NCBI RefSeq assembly: GCF_001552375.1
Contig: NZ_BCRB01000006.1
Coordinates: forward strand, 1 to 64,000
Length of the DNA: 64,000 nucleotides
Direction of reading: 5' to 3'
Source: Cellulomonas iranensis NBRC 101100 = JCM 18110
Lineage (GTDB): Bacteria; Actinomycetota; Actinomycetes; Actinomycetales; Cellulomonadaceae
Below, in pieces: positions 7,962 through 40,291 of the stretch (positions are counted from its first letter, which is position 1; each line of letters starts with the position of its first letter). A program made the translations under genes and the position numbers. Below the pieces are notes generated by a model, which saw only the letters and a list, made by a program, of their open reading frames with translations, searched no databases and was not told the origin of the DNA.

Positions 7962-8456
7962 TCAGCGACGGACGAGCACCGTGCCGGCGGCACGGTCGTG
8001 CAGGCCGCGCCCGTCGCCGTCCCAGACGACCGCGGGGATCACGAGGCACACGAGCAGCGTCCGCACGGCCGCGGCGACGATCCCGGGCGGGCCGTCGACG
8101 GGCGCCGGCGGCGTGCGCAGCGACGTCTGCGCGAGCCGGCGCACCTGCAGACCGAGCAGCCGGTGGCCGAGCGTGTGCCCGAGCGTGGCGACGAGCACGA
8201 GGTTCTCGACGGCGAACACCGCGAGCGTCGCGAGCTCGTGCCCGCGGAACAGGAAGAGCCCGTCGTCCCGCACCGGCAGCAGCACCGCGGAGACGGCGAG
8301 GCACGCGACCCAGTCGATCGCGAGCGCCACCAGGCGCCGGCCGGGCCGCGCCAACGAGCCGCTGCCCGACGCGGGGAGCCCGAGCCTGCTGCCGCGGTCC
8401 CCGTCGGAGCCGGGTCCGCCCTCGAGCCACGAGCCCACCGAGTCACGCGTCGCCAT
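7962..8456 (-). CDS. RDD-family membrane protein
   Basis: A 164-aa membrane protein with the RDD family's helices. RPGRRLVALAIDWVACLAVS (about 42-61) carries the conserved Arg and Asp, and a helix near 80-100 ends in GHTLGHRLLGLQVRR. The closing segment GRGLHDRAAGTVLV is also family-typical. The start is ATG 8456, with TACGCT six bases upstream. Convergent with the DUF4191 gene and divergent from glnA. Function unknown; some RDD proteins are implicated in ion transport. Confidence 0.87.
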   Translation of the reverse strand: MATRDSVGSWLEGGPGSDGDRGSRLGLPASGSGSLARPGRRLVALAIDWVACLAVSAVLLPVRDDGLFLFRGHELATLAVFAVENLVLVATLGHTLGHRLLGLQVRRLAQTSLRTPPAPVDGPPGIVAAAVRTLLVCLVIPAVVWDGDGRGLHDRAAGTVLVRR

Positions 8457-8468: not shown

Positions 8469-8533
8469 CGTGCGCCCTGCACGTCGCCCGCCCGGTGCAC
8501 GGGACGCGAGATCGTTACACGGGGGCCCAGCGC

Positions 8534-8571
8534 GTAACCTGCCGGAAACAACGGGGCCACGGCGGGGAAAC
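8534..8571 (+). promoter_or_regulatory. GlnR-type box upstream of glnA1
   Basis: GTAAC (8534-8538), six bases, GAAAC (8545-8549), six bases, GCCAC (8556-8560), six bases, GAAAC (8567-8571). The strict 11-bp spacing matches the actinobacterial GlnR consensus gTnAC-n6-GaAAC repeated twice; only the third half-site is degraded. It lies 62 bp before the glnA start, so nitrogen-limitation control by GlnR is expected. Confidence 0.75.
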
Positions 8572-8633
8572 CCCCCGCTCCTAGCCTCGTCAGCGCCCGG
8601 GTCGACCGGGCACCACCGACCGAGGAGCAGCGG

Positions 8634-10058
8634 ATGTTCACGAAGCCAGAGGAAGTCCTGGCGTTCATCAAGAGCGAGGACGTCAAGTTCGTCGACGTGC
8701 GGTTCTGCGACCTGCCGGGTGTGATGCAGCACTTCAACGTGCCGGCCGCCTCGCTCGACGCGGACTTCTTCACGGACGGCCAGATGTTCGACGGCTCGTC
8801 GATCCGCGGCTTCCAGGCCATCCACGAGTCCGACATGAAGCTCGTGCCCGACGTCACGACCGCGTACGTCGACCCCTTCCGCGTCGAGAAGACGCTGAAC
8901 ATCAACTTCCACATCGTCGACCCGTACACCGACGAGCCCTACAGCCGCGACCCCCGCCAGGTCGCCGCGAAGGCCGAGGCGTACCTCAAGTCGACCGGCA
9001 TCGCGGACACCGCGTTCTTCGCGCCCGAGGCCGAGTTCTACATCTTCGACGACATCCGCTTCGAGACGAAGCAGAACGCGTCGTACTACTACATCGACTC
9101 GATCGAGGCCGCGTGGAACACGGGCCGCGAGGAGGAGGGTGGCAACCTGGGGCACAAGACGCCCTACAAGGGGGGCTACTTCCCCGTCCCGCCGGTCGAC
9201 CACTTCGCCGACCTGCGCGACCAGATCTCGCTGCAGCTCGACGCCCTCGGCCTGCAGGTCGAGCGCGCGCACCACGAGGTCGGCACCGCCGGCCAGGCGG
9301 AGATCAACTACCGCTTCGACACGCTGTCCAAGTCGGCCGACAAGGTGCAGCTGTTCAAGTACGTCGTGAAGAACGTCGCTCACGAGAACGGCCGCACGGC
9401 GACCTTCATGCCGAAGCCGCTGTTCGGCGACAACGGCTCGGGCATGCACGTGCACCAGTCCCTGTGGAAGGACGGCGAGCCGCTGTTCTTCGACGAGAAG
9501 GGCTACGGCGGCCTGTCGGACATCGCCCGCTGGTACATCGGCGGCCTGCTCAAGCACGCGCCGTCGCTGCTCGCGTTCACCAACCCCACGGTGAACTCGT
9601 ACCACCGCCTGGTGCCGGGCTTCGAGGCGCCGGTCAACCTGGTCTACTCGGCCCGCAACCGCTCGGCGTGCATCCGCATCCCCGTCACGGGCTCGAACCC
9701 CAAGGCCAAGCGCGTCGAGTTCCGCGTGCCGGACCCGTCGTCGAACCCGTACCTCGCATTCGCGGCCATGCTCATGGCCGGCCTGGACGGCATCCAGAAC
9801 CGCATCGAGCCGCCGGAGCCGGTCGACAAGGACCTCTACGAGCTGCCCCCCGAGGAGCACGCGCTCATCCAGCAGGTCCCGGGCTCGCTCGCCGAGGTGC
9901 TCGACAACCTCGAGGCCGACCACGACTGGCTGACCGCCGGCAACGTGTTCACGCCGGACCTCATCCGCACGTGGATCGACTACAAGCGCTCGGCCGAGGT
10001 CGACCCGATCCGGCTGCGCCCGCACCCGCACGAGTTCGAGCTGTACTACGACGTCTGA
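8634..10058 (+). CDS. glnA: Glutamine synthetase type I (GlnA1)
   Basis: ATP-dependent ligation of ammonia to glutamate; cytosolic dodecamer and main ammonium-assimilation enzyme. The 474-aa protein has [10 protein letters not shown] near residue 50 and the metal/ATP-site [19 protein letters not shown] (about 256-274). The adenylylation loop [11 protein letters not shown] carries the target tyrosine. The ATG has a GAGGAG site eight bases upstream. It is regulated transcriptionally by the GlnR-type box and post-translationally by the GlnE adenylyltransferase encoded at 11.9-15.0 kb. Confidence 0.98.
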
Positions 10059-10168: not shown

Positions 10169-11773
10169 TCAGTACCGGAAGTGCGACACCCGGGCGCGCA
10201 GGTCCTCCGACGTGCGGGCCATCTCGCCGATCGCGGCACCCATCTGGTTGAGGGTCTCCGACGACGAGCTCGCGGCCGTGGCGACGCCCGTGATGTTCGA
10301 GGCGATCTCCCCCGACCCCGCGGCCGCCTCGCCGACCGACCGCGACATCTCGGTGGTCGTGGCGGTCTGCTCCTCGACCGCCGACGCGATCGTCAGCTGG
10401 TAGTCGTTGATCGACGCGATGATCTCGGCGATCTCGCCGATCGCACCGACGGCGCCGGACGTGTCGGTCTGGATGGCCTCGACACGCCGCACGATGTCCT
10501 CGGTGGCCTTCGCGGTCTCCTGCGCGAGCTCCTTGACCTCGCCCGCCACGACCGCGAACCCCTTGCCCGCCTCGCCCGCGCGGGCCGCCTCGATGGTCGC
10601 GTTGAGCGCCAGCAGGTTCGTCTGCTCCGCGATCGACGTGATCACCTTGACGACGTTGCCGATCTCCTGCGACGACGTCCCCAGGCGCGAGACCTGCTCG
10701 TTGGTCGCCGCCGCGGCGTCGGTGGCCTGGCCCGCGACCTTGGCGGCCTGCGACGCGTTCTGCGCGATCTCGCGGATCGAGGCACCCATCTGCTCGGCGC
10801 CCGCCGCGACCGACTGCACGTTGCGCGACACCTGCTCGGCCGCGGCCGCCACGACGCCCGCCTGAGCCGACGTCTCGTCCGATCCCGCGACGACCTGGGT
10901 CGACGCGGCGGCGAGCTCCTCGGCCGCCGACGCGACGGTGTGCGCGGACTCCGCGACGCCGGACACGACCTCGCGCAGGCTCGTCTGCGCGAGGTCCAGC
11001 GAGCGCGCCATGTCACCGAGCTCGTCGGTGCTGCGCACGTGCGCCGTGTGCGTGAGGTCGCCGTCCGCCATGGCCTCGAGCGCCGTGCGCACCTCCCCGG
11101 CGTCCAGGGCGAGCCGCCGCGCGACCCGCAGACCGACCACCACGACGACGGTCAGGCCGAGCAGCAGCACGCCCACCACGGTCGCCAGCGTGCGGTTGAC
11201 GTTGGCGCCCGACGCAGCGGCGTCCGCGTCGGCGGCCGCAGCGACGGCCGCGTTCTCGGCGGCGATCGCGTCCGCACCGATCGTCGTCTGCGGCAGGATC
11301 GCCGCCCGGTAGAACGCCGCGGCCCCCGCGACGTCCCCGCCGTCGGCCATCGGGAACAGCTCGTCCTTCGCGAGGCCGACCATCTCGGTCCAGGCGCCCT
11401 CGAACGCCGCGAACGCGTCGGCGTCGGCGGCCTGGTCCTCGTACGCCGCGAGCTGCTCGGCGATCGTCGCGACGTAGCCGTCGAGCTGGTCGCGCAGGTC
11501 GCCGCGGACCTGCTCGGAGGCCGCCGGGTACTCGACCATGCGGGCCCGTCCGGCCTGGAACGCGCGCGCGAGGTCGCTGACCTGGCTCAGCTGGGCGACG
11601 TTCGCGCTGGTCCGCTCGACGTCGGCGCGCAGCTGCGTCAGGCCCAGCGCGGCGGACACCACGACGACGACGCCGACGAGGCCCGCGGCCGCGAGCAGTC
11701 CGAGGACCTTCCCCGCGATGGACAGACGCCGACCGCGGCGACGGGTGTGCGGGGCGACGGAAGGGTACGACAT
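10169..11773 (-). CDS. Methyl-accepting chemotaxis protein
   Basis: Membrane chemoreceptor of 534 aa. TM1 is near residues 20-45. A helical periplasmic sensor (about 50-190) follows, then TM2 ([20 protein letters not shown]), HAMP, and a cytoplasmic signalling hairpin whose tip contains [22 protein letters not shown] 11773 has AGGAGA five bases upstream; the longer open frame lacks such a site. The periplasmic four-helix-type sensor gives no ligand. Its presence implies a Che system and motility elsewhere in the genome. Transcribed alone, convergent with glnA1. Confidence 0.93.
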
Positions 11774-11921
11774 GGGTCTCCTGACGGTGGGCCGCGACGG
11801 CGCGCGACAGCGACCGCACACGGAGGGGGTTCACCTCTCCATCGGTTGCCCCGGGCGAAGGGTGAGCGCTCGTGGGCCGCGACCTGCACGGACGCCGCCT
11901 CGCGTCGGGACCGGGACCGCG

Positions 11922-14900
11922 TCAGCCGTAGAAGACGCGCTCGACGACGGCCCGCGCGCGCCGCGCGCCGCGCAGGTACGTGTCCTCGAGCTCGGCGCCC
12001 GAGCCCGGGGGCATCCCCAGGACGCGGGACACGCCGGCGAGCGCGACCCGGTCGTGCGGCAGGACGTCGGCGTGCGCGCCCTCGGCGCGGCCCGTCCACA
12101 GCACGTTCGCGTCCCGGATGCGCGACGCGAGCTCCCACGCCTCGCGCAGCACGGTCGCGTCGTCGGCGTCGAGCAGCCCGGCCTCGGTGGCGGCGGCGAG
12201 CGCGTCGAGCGTCGACGTCGTGCGCAGCGCGGGCACGGCGTGCGCGTGCAGCAGCTGCAGGAGCTGCGCCGTCCACTCGACGTCGCTGATGCCGCCGCGG
12301 CCGAGCTTGAGGTGGCGGGTCGGGTCGAGGCCGCGCGGCAGCCGTTCGGCCTCGACGCGCGCCTTGATGCGACGCACCTCGCGGACCGCGGCGGGGTCGA
12401 GCCCGCCCTCGGGGTAGCGCAGCGGGTCGACGAGCGCGACGAACCGCTCCCCCAGCCCGGTGTCCCCGGCGACCGGTCGGGCCCGCAGCAGCGCCTGGCT
12501 CTCCCAGGTCGCGGACCAGCGCGCGTAGTACTCGGCGTACGCGTCGAACGAGCGCGCGAGCGGTCCGTTGCGTCCCTCGGGGCGCAGGTCCGCGTCCACG
12601 CTCAGCGTGGGCTCCGGCCCGACCGACCCCAGCAGCTGCCGCAGCTGCGACGCGACCGCGACCGCGAACTGCTGCGCGGCCTGCGGGTCGGCGCCCGGCA
12701 CCGGGTCGTGCACGAACAGCACGTCGGCGTCGGACGAGTACCCCATCTCACGGCCGCCCATGCGCCCCATCGCGACGACGAGCAGACGCGTCGGGCTCGC
12801 GTCGACCCCCGCGGCGGCGCGCGCCTCCGCCTCGGCGACACGCAGCGTGCCCGCGAGGACGGCGTCGGCCGCGTTCGTGAGGCTGTGCGACGCGCGCACG
12901 CCCGTCGTGCCGCCGAGCACGTCGGCGACGGCGGTCCGGGCGAGCTCGCGACGGCGCAGCGCGCGCAACGCCGTCACGGCGGGCACCGGTTCGCTCGCCC
13001 GCCGCAGCACGGCGTCGGCCTCCGCGACGAGCCGCTCGGCGGACCGTGGCGCGAGCTCGGCGTCGTCGTCGAGCCACGTCACGGAGTTCGGCGAGCGCGA
13101 CAGCGCGTCGGCCGCGTACCGCGAGGTCGACAGGACCTGCGCGAGACGCTGCCCCGCGGTGCCGGAGTCGCGCAGGAGCTTGAGGTACCAGTGCGTCGAG
13201 CCGAGCTGCTCGGACAGCCGCCGGAACGCGAGCAGACCGGCGTCGGGGTCGGCGCCCTCGGCGAACCAGCCGAGCATGACCGGCAGCAGCTGCCGCTGGA
13301 TCGCCGCCCGCCGCGAGACGCCCTCCGAGAGCGCGGCGATGTGCCGGACCGCACCCGCCGGGTCGCGGTAGCCGATGGCCGCGAGGCGCGCGCGCTGCGC
13401 CTCGGGCGCCAGGCTCGCCTCCTCGGTCGACAGCCGCGCCGTCGCCGGCAGCAGGGGTCGGTAGAACAGCTCCTCGTGCAGGCGCCGCACCTCGCGGCGC
13501 GTCGTGCGCCACCGCTCCAGCAGCCCCTCGGGGCCCTCGATGCGCATCCGCATGGTCCGGGAGAGCCGCCGCAGGTCGGGCTCCGACGTCGGCACCAGGT
13601 GCGTGCGCTGCAGGCGGTGCAGCTGGATCCGGTGCTCCATCATGCGCATCCAGCGGTAGCAGACCGCGAGCTGAGCGGCGTGCTCACGCCCCACGTAGCC
13701 GCCGGCCGCGAGCGCCGCGAGCGCCGTGAGCGTCGACGGGCTGCGGATCGACTCGTCGGCGCGCCCGTGCACGAGCTGCAGCAGCTGCACCGTGAACTCG
13801 ACGTCGCGCAGGCCCCCCGCACCGAGCTTGAGCTGCCGGTCCGCCTCCGCGCGCGGGATGTGCGCCTCGACGCGGCGCCGCATGGCCTGCGCGTCCTCGA
13901 CGAAGTTGTCGCGCTGCACCGCCGCCCACACGAACGGGTTGACCGTGTCGACGTACGCGCGGCCCAGGTCGGCGTCCCCGGCGAGCGGCCGCGCCTTGAG
14001 CAGGGCCTGGAACTCCCACGTCCTGGCCCACCGCTCGTAGTACGCGCGGTGGCTCGCGAGCGTCCGCACGAGCGGGCCGTCCTTGCCCTCGGGGCGCAGC
14101 GCGGCGTCCACCGGCCACAGCGCGGGCTCGCCCGCGGGCGCCGAGCACGCGCGCGCGAGGCCCGCCGCGAGCCGCGCGCCGGCCACGAGCGCCTCGTCCT
14201 CGGGCGTGCCGTCGACCGGCTCGGCGACGTACACGACGTCGACGTCCGACACGTAGTTGAGCTCGCGCCCGCCGGCCTTGCCCATGCCGATGACCGCGAG
14301 CCGCACGCCGCACCCCTCGTCGTCGAGGTCGGCGCGCGCGAGCGCGAGCGCCGCCTCGAGGGCCGCGGCCGCGAGGTCCGCGAGCGCGGCCGCGACACCC
14401 GGCAGCCGGGTCAGGGGGTCCTCGGCGGTGAGGTCGGTCGCGGCGATGCGCAGCAGCCGCGTGCGGTAGGCGCGCCGCATCGCGTCGACGCCCGGCGTGC
14501 CGGCCAGCCCGGCGACGGGCACGTCCGCGGCGGGGTCGGCGTCCACGGCGCGCAGCAGCTCGGCGCGCACGTGGGCGGCGGCGACGCCCGTGCCCGGCGT
14601 CGGGTCGGCGACCGCGAGCAGGTTCACGGGGTGCGCCGCGAGCGCGTTCCCGAGCGCCGACGACGCACCCGTGACGGCCAGCAGGCGGGCGCGCGCGGGG
14701 CCGTCGTCGGCGAGCACGTCGTGCAGCAGCGCCGTGAGGCGGTCGTCGCGCTGGACCGCGCCCGCGAGCTTGGCGACCGCGAGCAGCGCCTCGTCGGGGT
14801 CCCCGACCTCCGCGAGCGCCGCGACCACGTGCTCGACGACCTCGGCGTCGACGGCCGCGAGCGCGGGGTCGCCCAGGAGCCGTTCGCCCCGGGGCACGTC

Positions 14901-14963
14901 GGCCACGCCGACGCGCGTCAGCCGCGTCGGGAGCGACGAGCCGCGGCCCGGCGTCGTGGCCAC
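11922..14963 (-). CDS. glnE: Bifunctional glutamine-synthetase adenylyltransferase/deadenylase GlnE
   Basis: Adds and removes AMP on the regulatory tyrosine of glutamine synthetase. The 1013-aa protein shows the expected two nucleotidyltransferase modules. GMGKAGGRELNYVSDVDVVY is in the N-terminal half and AMGRMGGREMGYSSDADVLF in the C-terminal half, each with the G...DxD catalytic signature. GLRDVEFTVQLLQ and GISDVEWTAQLLQ also mark the repeat. The GTG start at 14963 lies two bases after the glnA2 stop, so the two are co-transcribed. The long open frame upstream of this start is antisense-type shadow over glnA2. Confidence 0.96.
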   Translation of the reverse strand: MATTPGRGSSLPTRLTRVGVADVPRGERLLGDPALAAVDAEVVEHVVAALAEVGDPDEALLAVAKLAGAVQRDDRLTALLHDVLADDGPARARLLAVTGASSALGNALAAHPVNLLAVADPTPGTGVAAAHVRAELLRAVDADPAADVPVAGLAGTPGVDAMRRAYRTRLLRIAATDLTAEDPLTRLPGVAAALADLAAAALEAALALARADLDDEGCGVRLAVIGMGKAGGRELNYVSDVDVVYVAEPVDGTPEDEALVAGARLAAGLARACSAPAGEPALWPVDAALRPEGKDGPLVRTLASHRAYYERWARTWEFQALLKARPLAGDADLGRAYVDTVNPFVWAAVQRDNFVEDAQAMRRRVEAHIPRAEADRQLKLGAGGLRDVEFTVQLLQLVHGRADESIRSPSTLTALAALAAGGYVGREHAAQLAVCYRWMRMMEHRIQLHRLQRTHLVPTSEPDLRRLSRTMRMRIEGPEGLLERWRTTRREVRRLHEELFYRPLLPATARLSTEEASLAPEAQRARLAAIGYRDPAGAVRHIAALSEGVSRRAAIQRQLLPVMLGWFAEGADPDAGLLAFRRLSEQLGSTHWYLKLLRDSGTAGQRLAQVLSTSRYAADALSRSPNSVTWLDDDAELAPRSAERLVAEADAVLRRASEPVPAVTALRALRRRELARTAVADVLGGTTGVRASHSLTNAADAVLAGTLRVAEAEARAAAGVDASPTRLLVVAMGRMGGREMGYSSDADVLFVHDPVPGADPQAAQQFAVAVASQLRQLLGSVGPEPTLSVDADLRPEGRNGPLARSFDAYAEYYARWSATWESQALLRARPVAGDTGLGERFVALVDPLRYPEGGLDPAAVREVRRIKARVEAERLPRGLDPTRHLKLGRGGISDVEWTAQLLQLLHAHAVPALRTTSTLDALAAATEAGLLDADDATVLREAWELASRIRDANVLWTGRAEGAHADVLPHDRVALAGVSRVLGMPPGSGAELEDTYLRGARRARAVVERVFYG

Positions 14964-14965
14964 GG

Positions 14966-16303
14966 TCAGACGAGCGGCAGGAACCGCTGCAGCTCGTACG
15001 GCGTGACCTGCGCGCGGTACTCGGCCCACTCCTGGCGCTTGTTGCGCAGGAAGTAGTCGAAGACGTGCTCGCCGAGGGTCTCGGCGACCAGCTCCGAGCG
15101 CTCCATGACGGCGATCGCCGCCTCGAGCGACGTCGGCAGCGGCTCGATGCCGAGCGCCTTGCGCTCGGCGTCGGTGAGCTCCCACACGTCGTCGTCGGCG
15201 CCCTCGGGCAGCTCGTAGCCCTCCTCGATGCCCTTGAGCCCGGCCGCGAGCAGCACCGCGAACGCGAGGTACGGGTTCGTCGCCGAGTCCACCGCGCGGT
15301 ACTCGACGCGGCTCGAGTTGCCCTTGCCGGGCTTGTACATCGGCACGCGCACGAGCGCCGAGCGGTTGTTGTGGCCCCAGCAGATGAACGAGGGCGCCTC
15401 GGCGCCGCCCCACAGCCGCTTGTAGGAGTTGACGAACTGGTTGGTCACGGCCGTGATCTCGGCCGCGTGCGTGAGCATGCCCGCGATGAACGAGCGCGCG
15501 ACCTTCGACAGCTCGAGCGGCGCACCCGGCTCGTGGAACGCGTTGCGGTCGCCCTCGAACAGCGACACGTGCGTGTGCATGCCCGACCCCGGCTGGTCGG
15601 CCAGCGGCTTGGGCATGAACGACGCGAACACGCCCTGCTCGAGCGCGACCTCCTTGACGACCGTGCGGAACGTCATGATGTTGTCGGCGGTGGTGAGCGC
15701 GTCGGCGTACCGCAGGTCGATCTCGTTCTGACCCGGACCGGCCTCGTGGTGCGAGAACTCGACCGAGATGCCCATGGACTCGAGCATCGTGATCGCGGCG
15801 CGGCGGAAGTCGTGCGCGGTGCCGCGCGGCACGTGGTCGAAGTAGCCGCCCTGGTCGACCGGGACGAGCGGCCGCGACGGGTCCGCGGGCGCGTCGAACA
15901 GGTAGAACTCGACCTCGGGGTGCGTGTAGAACGTGAACCCGCGGTCGCTCGCGCGGTTCAGCGCACGCTTGAGGACGTAGCGCGAGTCCGCGAGCGACGG
16001 CTCGCCGTCGGGCGTCAGCAGGTCGCAGAACATGCGCGCGGTGCCGTGCCGCTCGCCGCGCCACGGCAGGATCTGGAACGTCGACGGGTCGGGCTTGGCG
16101 ATCATGTCGGCCTCGTACACGCGCGTGAGGCCCTCGATCGAGCTGCCGTCGAAGCCGATGCCCTCGCTGAACGCCTGCTCGAGCTCGGCAGGCGCGACGG
16201 CGACCGACTTGAGCATGCCCAGCACGTCCGTGAACCACAGACGGATGAAGCGGATGTCCCGCTCCTCGACGGTCCGGAGGACGAACTCCTGCTGCCTGTC
16301 CAT
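14966..16303 (-). CDS. glnA2: Glutamine synthetase-like protein GlnA2
   Basis: A 445-aa type-I glutamine synthetase paralogue starting MDRQQEFVLRTVEERDIRF, an actinobacterial GlnA2 signature. It retains GFDGSSIEGL and the ATP/metal-site FMPKPLADQPGSGMHTHVS. At the loop where GlnA1 has [11 protein letters not shown], this protein reads DDDVWELTDAE, so the adenylylatable Tyr is replaced by Trp. Activity may therefore escape GlnE, or the enzyme may use another substrate, since several GlnA paralogues act on polyamines or ethanolamine. ATG 16303 is chosen over the longer frame because homology begins there. It is followed by glnE in an operon. Confidence 0.93.
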   Translation of the reverse strand: MDRQQEFVLRTVEERDIRFIRLWFTDVLGMLKSVAVAPAELEQAFSEGIGFDGSSIEGLTRVYEADMIAKPDPSTFQILPWRGERHGTARMFCDLLTPDGEPSLADSRYVLKRALNRASDRGFTFYTHPEVEFYLFDAPADPSRPLVPVDQGGYFDHVPRGTAHDFRRAAITMLESMGISVEFSHHEAGPGQNEIDLRYADALTTADNIMTFRTVVKEVALEQGVFASFMPKPLADQPGSGMHTHVSLFEGDRNAFHEPGAPLELSKVARSFIAGMLTHAAEITAVTNQFVNSYKRLWGGAEAPSFICWGHNNRSALVRVPMYKPGKGNSSRVEYRAVDSATNPYLAFAVLLAAGLKGIEEGYELPEGADDDVWELTDAERKALGIEPLPTSLEAAIAVMERSELVAETLGEHVFDYFLRNKRQEWAEYRAQVTPYELQRFLPLV

Positions 16304-16454
16304 GCGTACATCCTGCCTGATGACCCGACCCCGCAGGGCGTGCGTCCACCGCGCGGCGCGTCCGGGCCCGACCTGGGCTCCGCGCACGTGCCGGGACGCG
16401 TGCCGACGGCGGCGCGGGTGCCCGTCCCCGGGCGTCCCGCGAGGTGCCCCGGGC

Positions 16455-16460
16455 TAGGCT
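16455..16460 (+). promoter_or_regulatory. -10 element of leaderless panB transcript
   Basis: TAGGCT is six bases upstream of the panB ATG, with no ribosome-binding site. Confidence 0.5.
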
Positions 16461-16466
16461 CGCGCC

Positions 16467-17288
16467 ATGTCGACGAGCGACGCCCCGACCCCCCGCCGAG
16501 TCCGCGTGCACCACCTGCAGGCCGCGAAGGAGCGCGGCGAGCGCCTGACGATGCTGACCGCGTACGACGCGGTCACCGCGCGCCTGTTCGACGAGGCCGG
16601 CATCGACATGCTGCTCGTCGGCGACTCCATCGGGAACACGATGCACGGCTACGCGACCACGCTGCCCGTCACGCTCGACGAGATCGTCGTCGCCGCCCGC
16701 GCCGTCGCGGGCGCCGCGCGGCGCGCGTTCGTCGTCGCCGACCTGCCGTTCGGCACGTACGAGGCCGGACCGGAGCAGGCCCTCGCGAGCGCGGTGCGGG
16801 TCATGAAGGAGACCGGCGTCTCGGCCGTGAAGATCGAGGGCGGGCAGCGCTCGGTCCCGCAGATCCGCGCGCTCACCGCGGCGGGCGTCCCGGTCGTGGC
16901 TCACCTCGGCTACACGCCGCAGTCCGAGAACGCGCTGGGCGGCCCGCGCGTGCAGGGCCGCGGCCAGGCGGCCGAGCAGATCAGCGACGACGCGGTCGCC
17001 GTCACCGAGGCCGGTGCCGTCGCGGTCGTGCTCGAGATGGTGCCCGCGCCGGTCGCGGCACGCATCACCGAGGTCGTGCGGATCCCGACGATCGGGATCG
17101 GCGCCGGCGCGGAGTGCGACGGGCAGGTGCTGGTGTGGGTCGACATGGCCGGCATGGGCGACTGGTCCCCGCGCTTCGCCAAGCGGTTCGGCGAGGTCGG
17201 GCAGGCGCTCACCGCGGCGGCCCGGGCCTTCGCCGACGAGGTGCGCGGGGGCGCGTTCCCCGCCGCGGAGCACTCCTTCGACGCGTGA
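16467..17288 (+). CDS. panB: 3-methyl-2-oxobutanoate hydroxymethyltransferase PanB
   Basis: First committed step of pantothenate/CoA synthesis: transfers hydroxymethyl from methylene-THF to ketoisovalerate. The 273-aa TIM-barrel protein shows [19 protein letters not shown] and [14 protein letters not shown] (metal-binding Asp). It also has [17 protein letters not shown] and [10 protein letters not shown]. It is monocistronic: glnA2 is divergent and the SPOR-like gene convergent. panC/panD are not in the window. Confidence 0.97.
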
Positions 17289-22854: not shown

Positions 22855-23243
22855 GCGGATGAGTCAGCCGGTACGCCGGGTTCTGTCCCCCCGTCCGGTT
22901 GCCCGGGCAGGGGTGGCGACCATCCATCTACGACGTACGTTGCCGCACGCCTCCAGCGGCCTACCCGGGAGCTCGGGCGGGCAACCCTCGAACGCTCCCT
23001 GTCTGGCCTTGCTCCGGGTGGGGTTTGCCGAGCCGCACCGGTCACCCGGTGCGCTGGTGGTCTCTTGCACCACCGTTTCACCCTTACCCCGCCGGCCGAG
23101 GCCGACGTGGCGGTCTGTTCTCTGTGGCACTGTCCCGCGGGTCACCCCGGGTGGGCGTTACCCACCACCCTGCCCTGCGGAGCCCGGACGTTCCTCGGCG
23201 GGACCCGAGGGTCCCGACGCGGCCGCCTGGCTGACTCATCCGC
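22855..23243 (-). ncRNA. rnpB: RNase P RNA, bacterial class A
   Basis: The catalytic RNA of RNase P. The 5' and 3' ends pair as helix P1: GGATGAGTCAGCC at 23241-23229 with its complement at 22857-22869. The conserved core is present: GAGGAACGTCCGGGCTCC near the 5' end, ACAGAA before the 3' P1 strand, and the GGGTAAGGGTGAAACGG region. About 389 nt fits high-GC actinobacterial rnpB. TAGGCT at 23256-23251 on the same strand would start transcription at the RNA 5' end. Confidence 0.95.
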
Positions 23244-28593: not shown

Positions 28594-28671
28594 GGGGCCT
28601 GTAGCTCAGTTGGTCAGAGCGCCGCGCTTACACCGCGGAGGTCGTCGGTTCGAGACCGGCCGGGCCCACCA
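28594..28671 (+). tRNA. tRNA-Val (anticodon TAC)
   Basis: Acceptor GGGCCTG pairs with CGGGCCC with one G-U. The anticodon stem CCGCG/CGCGG encloses loop CTTACAC with anticodon TAC at 28629-28631. The T arm contains GGTTCGAGACC, and the CCA end is encoded (28669-28671). A TAGGCT at 28576-28581 is a plausible -10. Confidence 0.96.
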
Positions 28672-40186: not shown

Positions 40187-40291
40187 GGGTGGTGCTCCTT
40201 CGTCGTTCGGTAGCTCGGCTGACCCCGTGGGCCCCGTGGCTTTGCGTCCCCACCTTGCGGCGGGTTTGCCGTTTGTCGCTGACGAAGGACG

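Follow-up and report, generated by a model that had tools for sequence, protein, structure and literature searches.

The region upstream of glnA1 in the 64,000-nucleotide stretch of Cellulomonas iranensis DNA analysed here (the window) carries what we regard, with high confidence, as a two-box a1-b1-a2-b2 GlnR site that would activate this glutamine synthetase gene. GlnR-dependent activation of glnA1 is very likely, and ordinary for the group, since glnR is present in the genome, the box is unique and conserved, and the −10 element is locked at 10 bp from it. The glnA1 box itself is ordinary; the new details are a fifth half-site upstream of it and a patchily distributed box before the second glutamine synthetase locus, glnA2. 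By glnA1 comparison, the named species closest to this genome belong to Cellulomonas. The genes flanking the box, and the four candidate half-sites within it, are as follows.

7962–8456, minus strand: divergent gene for an RDD-family membrane protein (PF06271, 36 bits; start picked by eye)
8534–8538, plus strand: candidate GlnR half-site a1, GTAAC (sequence, window and genome pattern scans)
8545–8549, plus strand: candidate GlnR half-site b1, GAAAC (sequence, window and genome pattern scans)
8556–8560, plus strand: candidate GlnR half-site a2, GCCAC, the weakest, over the −35 place (sequence, pattern scans)
8567–8571, plus strand: candidate GlnR half-site b2, GAAAC (sequence, window and genome pattern scans)
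8634–10058, plus strand: glnA1, type I glutamine synthetase, 474 aa (TIGR00653, 680.8 bits)

Positions 8534–8571 read exactly GTAAC-CTGCCG-GAAAC-AACGGG-GCCAC-GGCGGG-GAAAC, with half-sites beginning at 8534, 8545, 8556 and 8567 in strict 11-bp steps, which confirms letter by letter the arrangement described in the original prediction. The fit to the GlnR consensus claimed there also stands: against the strict a-b-a-b consensus this is the best place in the genome, with one mismatch where the next two places have three each. The lone mismatch is the second base of a2 (GCCAC versus GTNAC), and all four half-sites (GTAAC, GAAAC, GCCAC and GAAAC) hold the fourth-position A that is reported to be irreplaceable for GlnR boxes in the available part of a review (PMC10704036). 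With up to three mismatches allowed, the pattern GTNAC-n6-GAAAC-n6-GNNAC-n6-GAAAC has the glnA1 box as its sole match in the window, where dinucleotide shuffles give an expectation of 0.05, and the exact four-half-site pattern occurs once in the whole 3.97-Mb draft genome. The motif scan with a GlnR matrix that had been proposed as a check agreed: a matrix derived from 65 distinct boxes of relatives gave the glnA1 box 44.5 bits and the next window place −6.4, and a 54-column model gave it 45.6 bits (E 2.3e-11) and the next genome place 12.3, although these scores are not independent proof because the matrix was built from close relatives and the 54-column model contains the window's own box. 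Apart from glnA1, the genome hits of that model were two weak partial ones (12.3 bits with E 0.6, and 11.7 bits with E 1.0); it missed amtB and is therefore glnA1-specific.

Evolutionarily, the box is widely kept. Among 80 relatives sampled by glnA1 (kept from at least 581 found), 68 have a box with at most four mismatches within 300 bp upstream of the gene, and the strict four-half-site form is found in 71 of 121 genomes of the family, the Cellulomonadaceae (reversed control pattern, 0), leaving 50 genomes without it. At glnA1 of a Promicromonospora (L031), one spacing seems by eye to be 5 rather than 6 bases, and the box still ends 10 bp before TAGGTT. Downstream of the box, two further features were identified:

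8582–8587, plus strand: putative −10 element TAGCCT, 10 bp past the box (TAnnnT conserved at the same place)
8595–8611, plus strand: small hairpin close to the glnA1 mRNA's predicted 5′ end, stem GCCCGG/CCGGGC (folding)

The spacing to the −10 element was followed in 70 of the 73 matched family places (69 before glnA1, one, L209, elsewhere): TAnnnT begins at the 11th base after the box end in 69 of the 70, the exception is L209, which is not glnA1, and the 10-bp gap is found in 69/69 Cellulomonadaceae glnA1 promoters. In a wider set, the first T of TAnnnT is kept in 67 of 69 sequences, the A in all 69 and the last T in 67. The position of this element puts the predicted transcription start near 8594, and the fixed spacing means that the box covers the place of the −35 element; that a2 lies over the −35 place is also stated for S. 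coelicolor amtB in the accessible text of PMC5826061. As to the hairpin, 38 of 57 distinct glnA1 5′ regions fold more favourably than their shuffled versions do on average, several Cellulomonas relatives have similar 5′ stems with changed letters, and an Rfam search at this hairpin gave no match.

These observations bear on whether the four half-sites could be a random match in GC-rich DNA. Two-half-site matches are indeed common, with 190 in the genome at one mismatch or fewer (94 + 96, versus 11 + 18 for the reversed pattern); we dropped that list as a regulon because several inspected exact matches lie inside long open frames. The four-half-site form, in contrast, is expected only 0.05 times in the window even at three mismatches, the half-sites of the relatives' boxes are conserved while the spacers between them vary, and the −10 spacing is fixed, which together already refute chance; we treat it as negligible.

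The original prediction had been made dependent on a glnR gene in the genome, and one was found: a 241-aa protein with GlnR_1st (PF21695, 147.3 bits in a profile search) and an OmpR-type DNA-binding domain (PF00486, 105.2 bits). Its best match is the GlnR of 8hih (290 bits), then that of 8hig (273 bits), its DNA-binding domain is nearly identical to theirs, and 8hih is presumably a GlnR-polymerase complex. Such a complex is described in the available part of the review PMC10704036. A second PF21695 match (22.5 bits, below cut-off) was rejected as a second GlnR; by eye it looks receiver-only and adjoins a trpD-like frame. A strong GlnR match (E below 1e-20) is present in 74 of the 80 relatives, and the other six have only weak partial matches, one of which passes the profile cut-off and would bring the count to 75. 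With kinship ignored, a box with at most three mismatches accompanies 62 of the 74 relatives with GlnR versus one of the six without (Fisher p 0.0013), and a box with at most four mismatches 65 of 74 versus three of six (p 0.041). The clearest cases are two Micrococcales metagenome genomes (L010 and L011), which, with a glnA1 90% identical to the query, have no strong GlnR and boxes with eight and nine mismatches, an apparent joint loss of regulator and glnA1 box. As a counter-case, the metagenome assembly L038 has a good box (two mismatches) and no strong GlnR match, and nine of the 74 relatives with GlnR lack a box with at most four mismatches upstream of the matched glnA1.

Mechanistically, we posit that GlnR, an orphan OmpR-type nitrogen regulator whose gene lies elsewhere in the genome, would bind as two head-to-tail dimers that occupy the 11-bp direct repeats of the glnA1 box. 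The box would replace the −35 element and, ending 10 bp before TAGCCT, would allow bound GlnR to retain RNA polymerase at a promoter that is weak on its own, so that glnA1 transcription would rise at nitrogen shortage. A fifth half-site, in the b3 register of the three-box amtB promoter, would probably provide a further GlnR contact for a stronger or faster response. The sequence of the box, its conservation, its spacing and the presence of glnR are observations, whereas we infer GlnR binding, activation, the transcription start and the role of the fifth half-site; the original statement that the box "shows" nitrogen control of GlnA1 was thus too strong, while GlnR control itself is strongly supported by inference.

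The fifth half-site, overlooked in the original prediction, and its would-be partner are located as follows:

8503–8507, plus strand: possible a3 position, GACGC, degenerate, fourth place not A (sequence)
8514–8518, plus strand: putative fifth half-site GTTAC, b3-like, exactly 20 bp upstream of a1 (family recurrence)

Of 67 distinct family flanks, 40 have GTNAC at the −20 offset, and at most two have it at any other single offset. After flanks more than 50% identical were merged, it remained in 17 of 42 clusters (again at most two elsewhere), with a binomial tail of 2e-18 at an assumed background of 0.02, and in 15 of 17 clusters the base after it is A. Of the 69 sequences in the wider set, 11 carry the fifth site, and each of these belongs to the 18 assigned to Cellulomonas and neighbouring genera. 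A partner half-site 11 bp further upstream was not found at glnA1 here (GACGC), and of 70 family flanks, 43 have the fifth site, with the a3 position reading GNNAC in only nine of them and GNNNC in 29. The promoter of amtB-glnK-glnD in the same genome reads GAAAC-n6-TTTAC-n15-GTCAC-n6-GTAAC-n6-GCCCG-n6-GAAAC-n10-CACAGT, with a half-site (TTTAC) at −20 from a1 and a partner at −31, a layout like that at glnA1. We searched 40 family genomes, of which 39 had an amtB-like match, and obtained 30 loci in addition to this genome's own: NTNAC is at −20 in 31/31, and GWAAC is at −31 in 28/31 (GCAAC in the other three), counts for which the choice of box used a bonus for the −31/−20 pattern. A bonus-free scan had the −20 site in all 22 correctly oriented loci, the other nine being misoriented. 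At S. coelicolor amtB, according to the available part of PMC5826061, GlnR binds a3-b3, which activation requires and which makes it faster, whereas a2 can be dispensed with; the same text classes glnA among two-box targets. Given the amtB layout and the S. coelicolor a3-b3 site, the glnA1 promoter in Cellulomonadaceae looks as if it had two boxes plus a reduced form of a third, in which b3 is kept and a3 is degenerate.

Whether GlnR is the protein that reads these sites must be weighed against MtrA, an OmpR-type regulator whose recognition sequence is very similar and which could bind the main box mainly or also and repress under rich conditions, leaving GlnR to share or lose control of glnA1. 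Streptomyces MtrA is reported to recognise GlnR sites, compete with GlnR and repress nitrogen genes in the accessible portions of PMC9045223 and PMC12323332, so GlnR may not be the only protein to read the site, and the fifth site, as GTNACA, resembles the mycobacterial MtrA motif GTCACAgcg given in the available parts of the cited MtrA literature. Here a1 reads GTAACC, in keeping with the GTnACC-n5-GTnAC form that those excerpts give for MtrA, but the repeat 11 bp on is GAAAC; repeats 11 bp apart with GAAAC b-sites look more like the GlnR form. Sharing with MtrA would moreover be compatible with the GlnR role, as GlnR stays an activator in the available text of the cited work. We consider control mainly or also by MtrA very unlikely for this box.

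For the fifth half-site alone, service to another regulator (MtrA or PhoP) or to the divergent RDD gene, instead of GlnR, is quite possible, if somewhat below an even chance. The site lies 20 bp, not 22, from a1 and is therefore out of 11-bp phase with the box, the −31 partner is weak at glnA1 (GNNAC in 9 of 43), and PhoP also binds amtB a3-b3 in S. coelicolor, as the available part of PMC5826061 has it. Against this, the −20 half-site at amtB of these genomes is accompanied by a complete a3-type partner, and that same source establishes a3-b3 of S. coelicolor as a GlnR site. We also rejected by eye the idea that the fifth site serves the divergent RDD gene as its −10 element, since no TAnnnT results when GTNAC is read on the minus strand.

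The second glutamine synthetase locus lies further downstream, beyond a methyl-accepting chemotaxis-type protein gene (10169–11821, minus strand) between glnA1 and glnE:

11922–14984, minus strand: glnE, glutamine synthetase adenylyltransferase (NF010707, 1377.8 bits)
14966–16303, minus strand: glnA2, glutamine synthetase-like, 445 aa, ATG at 16303 (TIGR00653, 460 bits; relatives support the start)
16304–16466, no strand: glnA2-panB intergenic region, without a GlnR box (matrix scan)

The genes glnA2 and glnE overlap, and panB is divergent from glnA2. As originally predicted, no GlnR box precedes this locus: the best matrix scores are −22.2 on the glnA2 side (16301–16700) and −27.1 upstream of glnE, and the aligned half-site positions before glnA2 read ACGCC and GGTCG. 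Eight of 20 relatives (8/21 counting the window) nevertheless have GTNAC-n6-GNNAC, that is, two half-sites suited to one dimer, in the 110 bp upstream of glnA2, the second ending exactly 10 bp before a −10-like hexamer, CAGGAT/CAAGAT; two more have the second half-site only (10/21 counting the window), and the box is absent from the window and from six of the eight Cellulomonas relatives examined. CAGGAT stands 6–8 bases before the glnA2 ATG, which seems to leave almost no leader on the transcript. Elsewhere, the available part of PMC3662644 describes glnA1 and glnA2 of M. smegmatis as both bound and controlled by GlnR; for S. coelicolor, an initial report had GlnR not binding at the glnA2 promoter, whereas an acetylated form later did so (accessible portion of PMC8998196). 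Because of these reports and the relatives' glnA2 boxes, the contrast between the loci is not a general rule. The proposal that they are regulated differently holds only in part: the box is absent at glnA2-glnE in this genome, and separate regulation of glnA1 and glnA2-glnE would be at most local.

A genome scan for GTNAC-n6-GNNAC-n10-YANNNT found eight places versus one for the control. The best-looking candidate (L216:1501–1532) reads GTAAC-n6-GTGAC-n10-TACCGT and lies upstream of a gene for a family 5 solute-binding protein (PF00496), a possible further target of GlnR or MtrA. Other places precede aminotransferase, NUDIX-like and peptidase-like genes (named by reading) and, at L220, a histidine phosphatase gene (Pfam); at L221:1501–1532, GTCAC-n6-GTTAC precedes an rpfB-like gene (named by reading), the kind of gene that MtrA controls in mycobacteria. 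The window also holds a c-di-GMP-I riboswitch aptamer (40206–40280, minus strand, 59.4 bits), an RNase P RNA of bacterial class A (22856–23238, minus strand, 286 bits) and tRNA genes at 28595, 34757, 41287 and 51329.

Taken further, and with confidence just short of even, we suggest that glnA1 of the sampled Cellulomonadaceae departs from the textbook two-box promoter: a fifth GlnR contact at −20 would be a reduced form of amtB a3-b3, the GlnR-polymerase geometry would be common to glnA1 and amtB, signals of phosphate (through PhoP) or MtrA may compete at that upstream site, and a single-dimer form would control glnA2 in some genera and be missing in others, including this genome, leaving glnA2-glnE uncoupled from nitrogen control. 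A literature search with partial coverage of subscription journals had no title on the Cellulomonadaceae glnA1 promoter among the matches listed, and GlnR and Cellulomonas were barely mentioned together in the literature searched. The analysis backs the original sequence-only reading with independent evidence. GlnR control of glnA1 would extend to Cellulomonas relatives, the fixed 10-bp distance together with the −20 half-site offers a sharp and testable criterion by which to look for GlnR-activated promoters in Cellulomonadaceae, and the patchy glnA2 box may serve as a natural experiment in the gain and loss of nitrogen control at a second glutamine synthetase locus.

Among known systems, the closest is the actinomycete two-box glnA site (Tiffert et al. 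2008, via the available part of the review PMC10704036), which is conserved in many actinomycetes and has the same a-b-a-b order of gTnAc/GaAAc with 6-bp spacers, upstream of glnA on the coding strand; the site here differs in its a2, GCCAC, and in the fifth half-site 20 bp upstream. Compared by text description rather than box distances, it resembles the three-box promoter of S. coelicolor amtB in having an extra GlnR-type site upstream of a1 and an off-consensus a2 over the −35 place, whereas glnA1 keeps only the b3-like half-site. As in the M. smegmatis GlnR regulon, where the available part of PMC3662644 reports glnA1, glnA2 and glnE together and glnA1 as GlnR-bound and induced, glnA1 has the box; unlike in that organism, whose glnA2 is GlnR-controlled, the glnA2 box is missing in the Cellulomonas iranensis window. 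MtrA sites of Streptomyces and mycobacteria, as far as the accessible portions of PMC9045223, PMC12323332, PMC13189361 and PMC2945938 describe them, share the GTnAC direct repeats and overlap with GlnR targets, but the consensus cited there has a shorter spacer than the glnA1 box and no GAAAC b-site.
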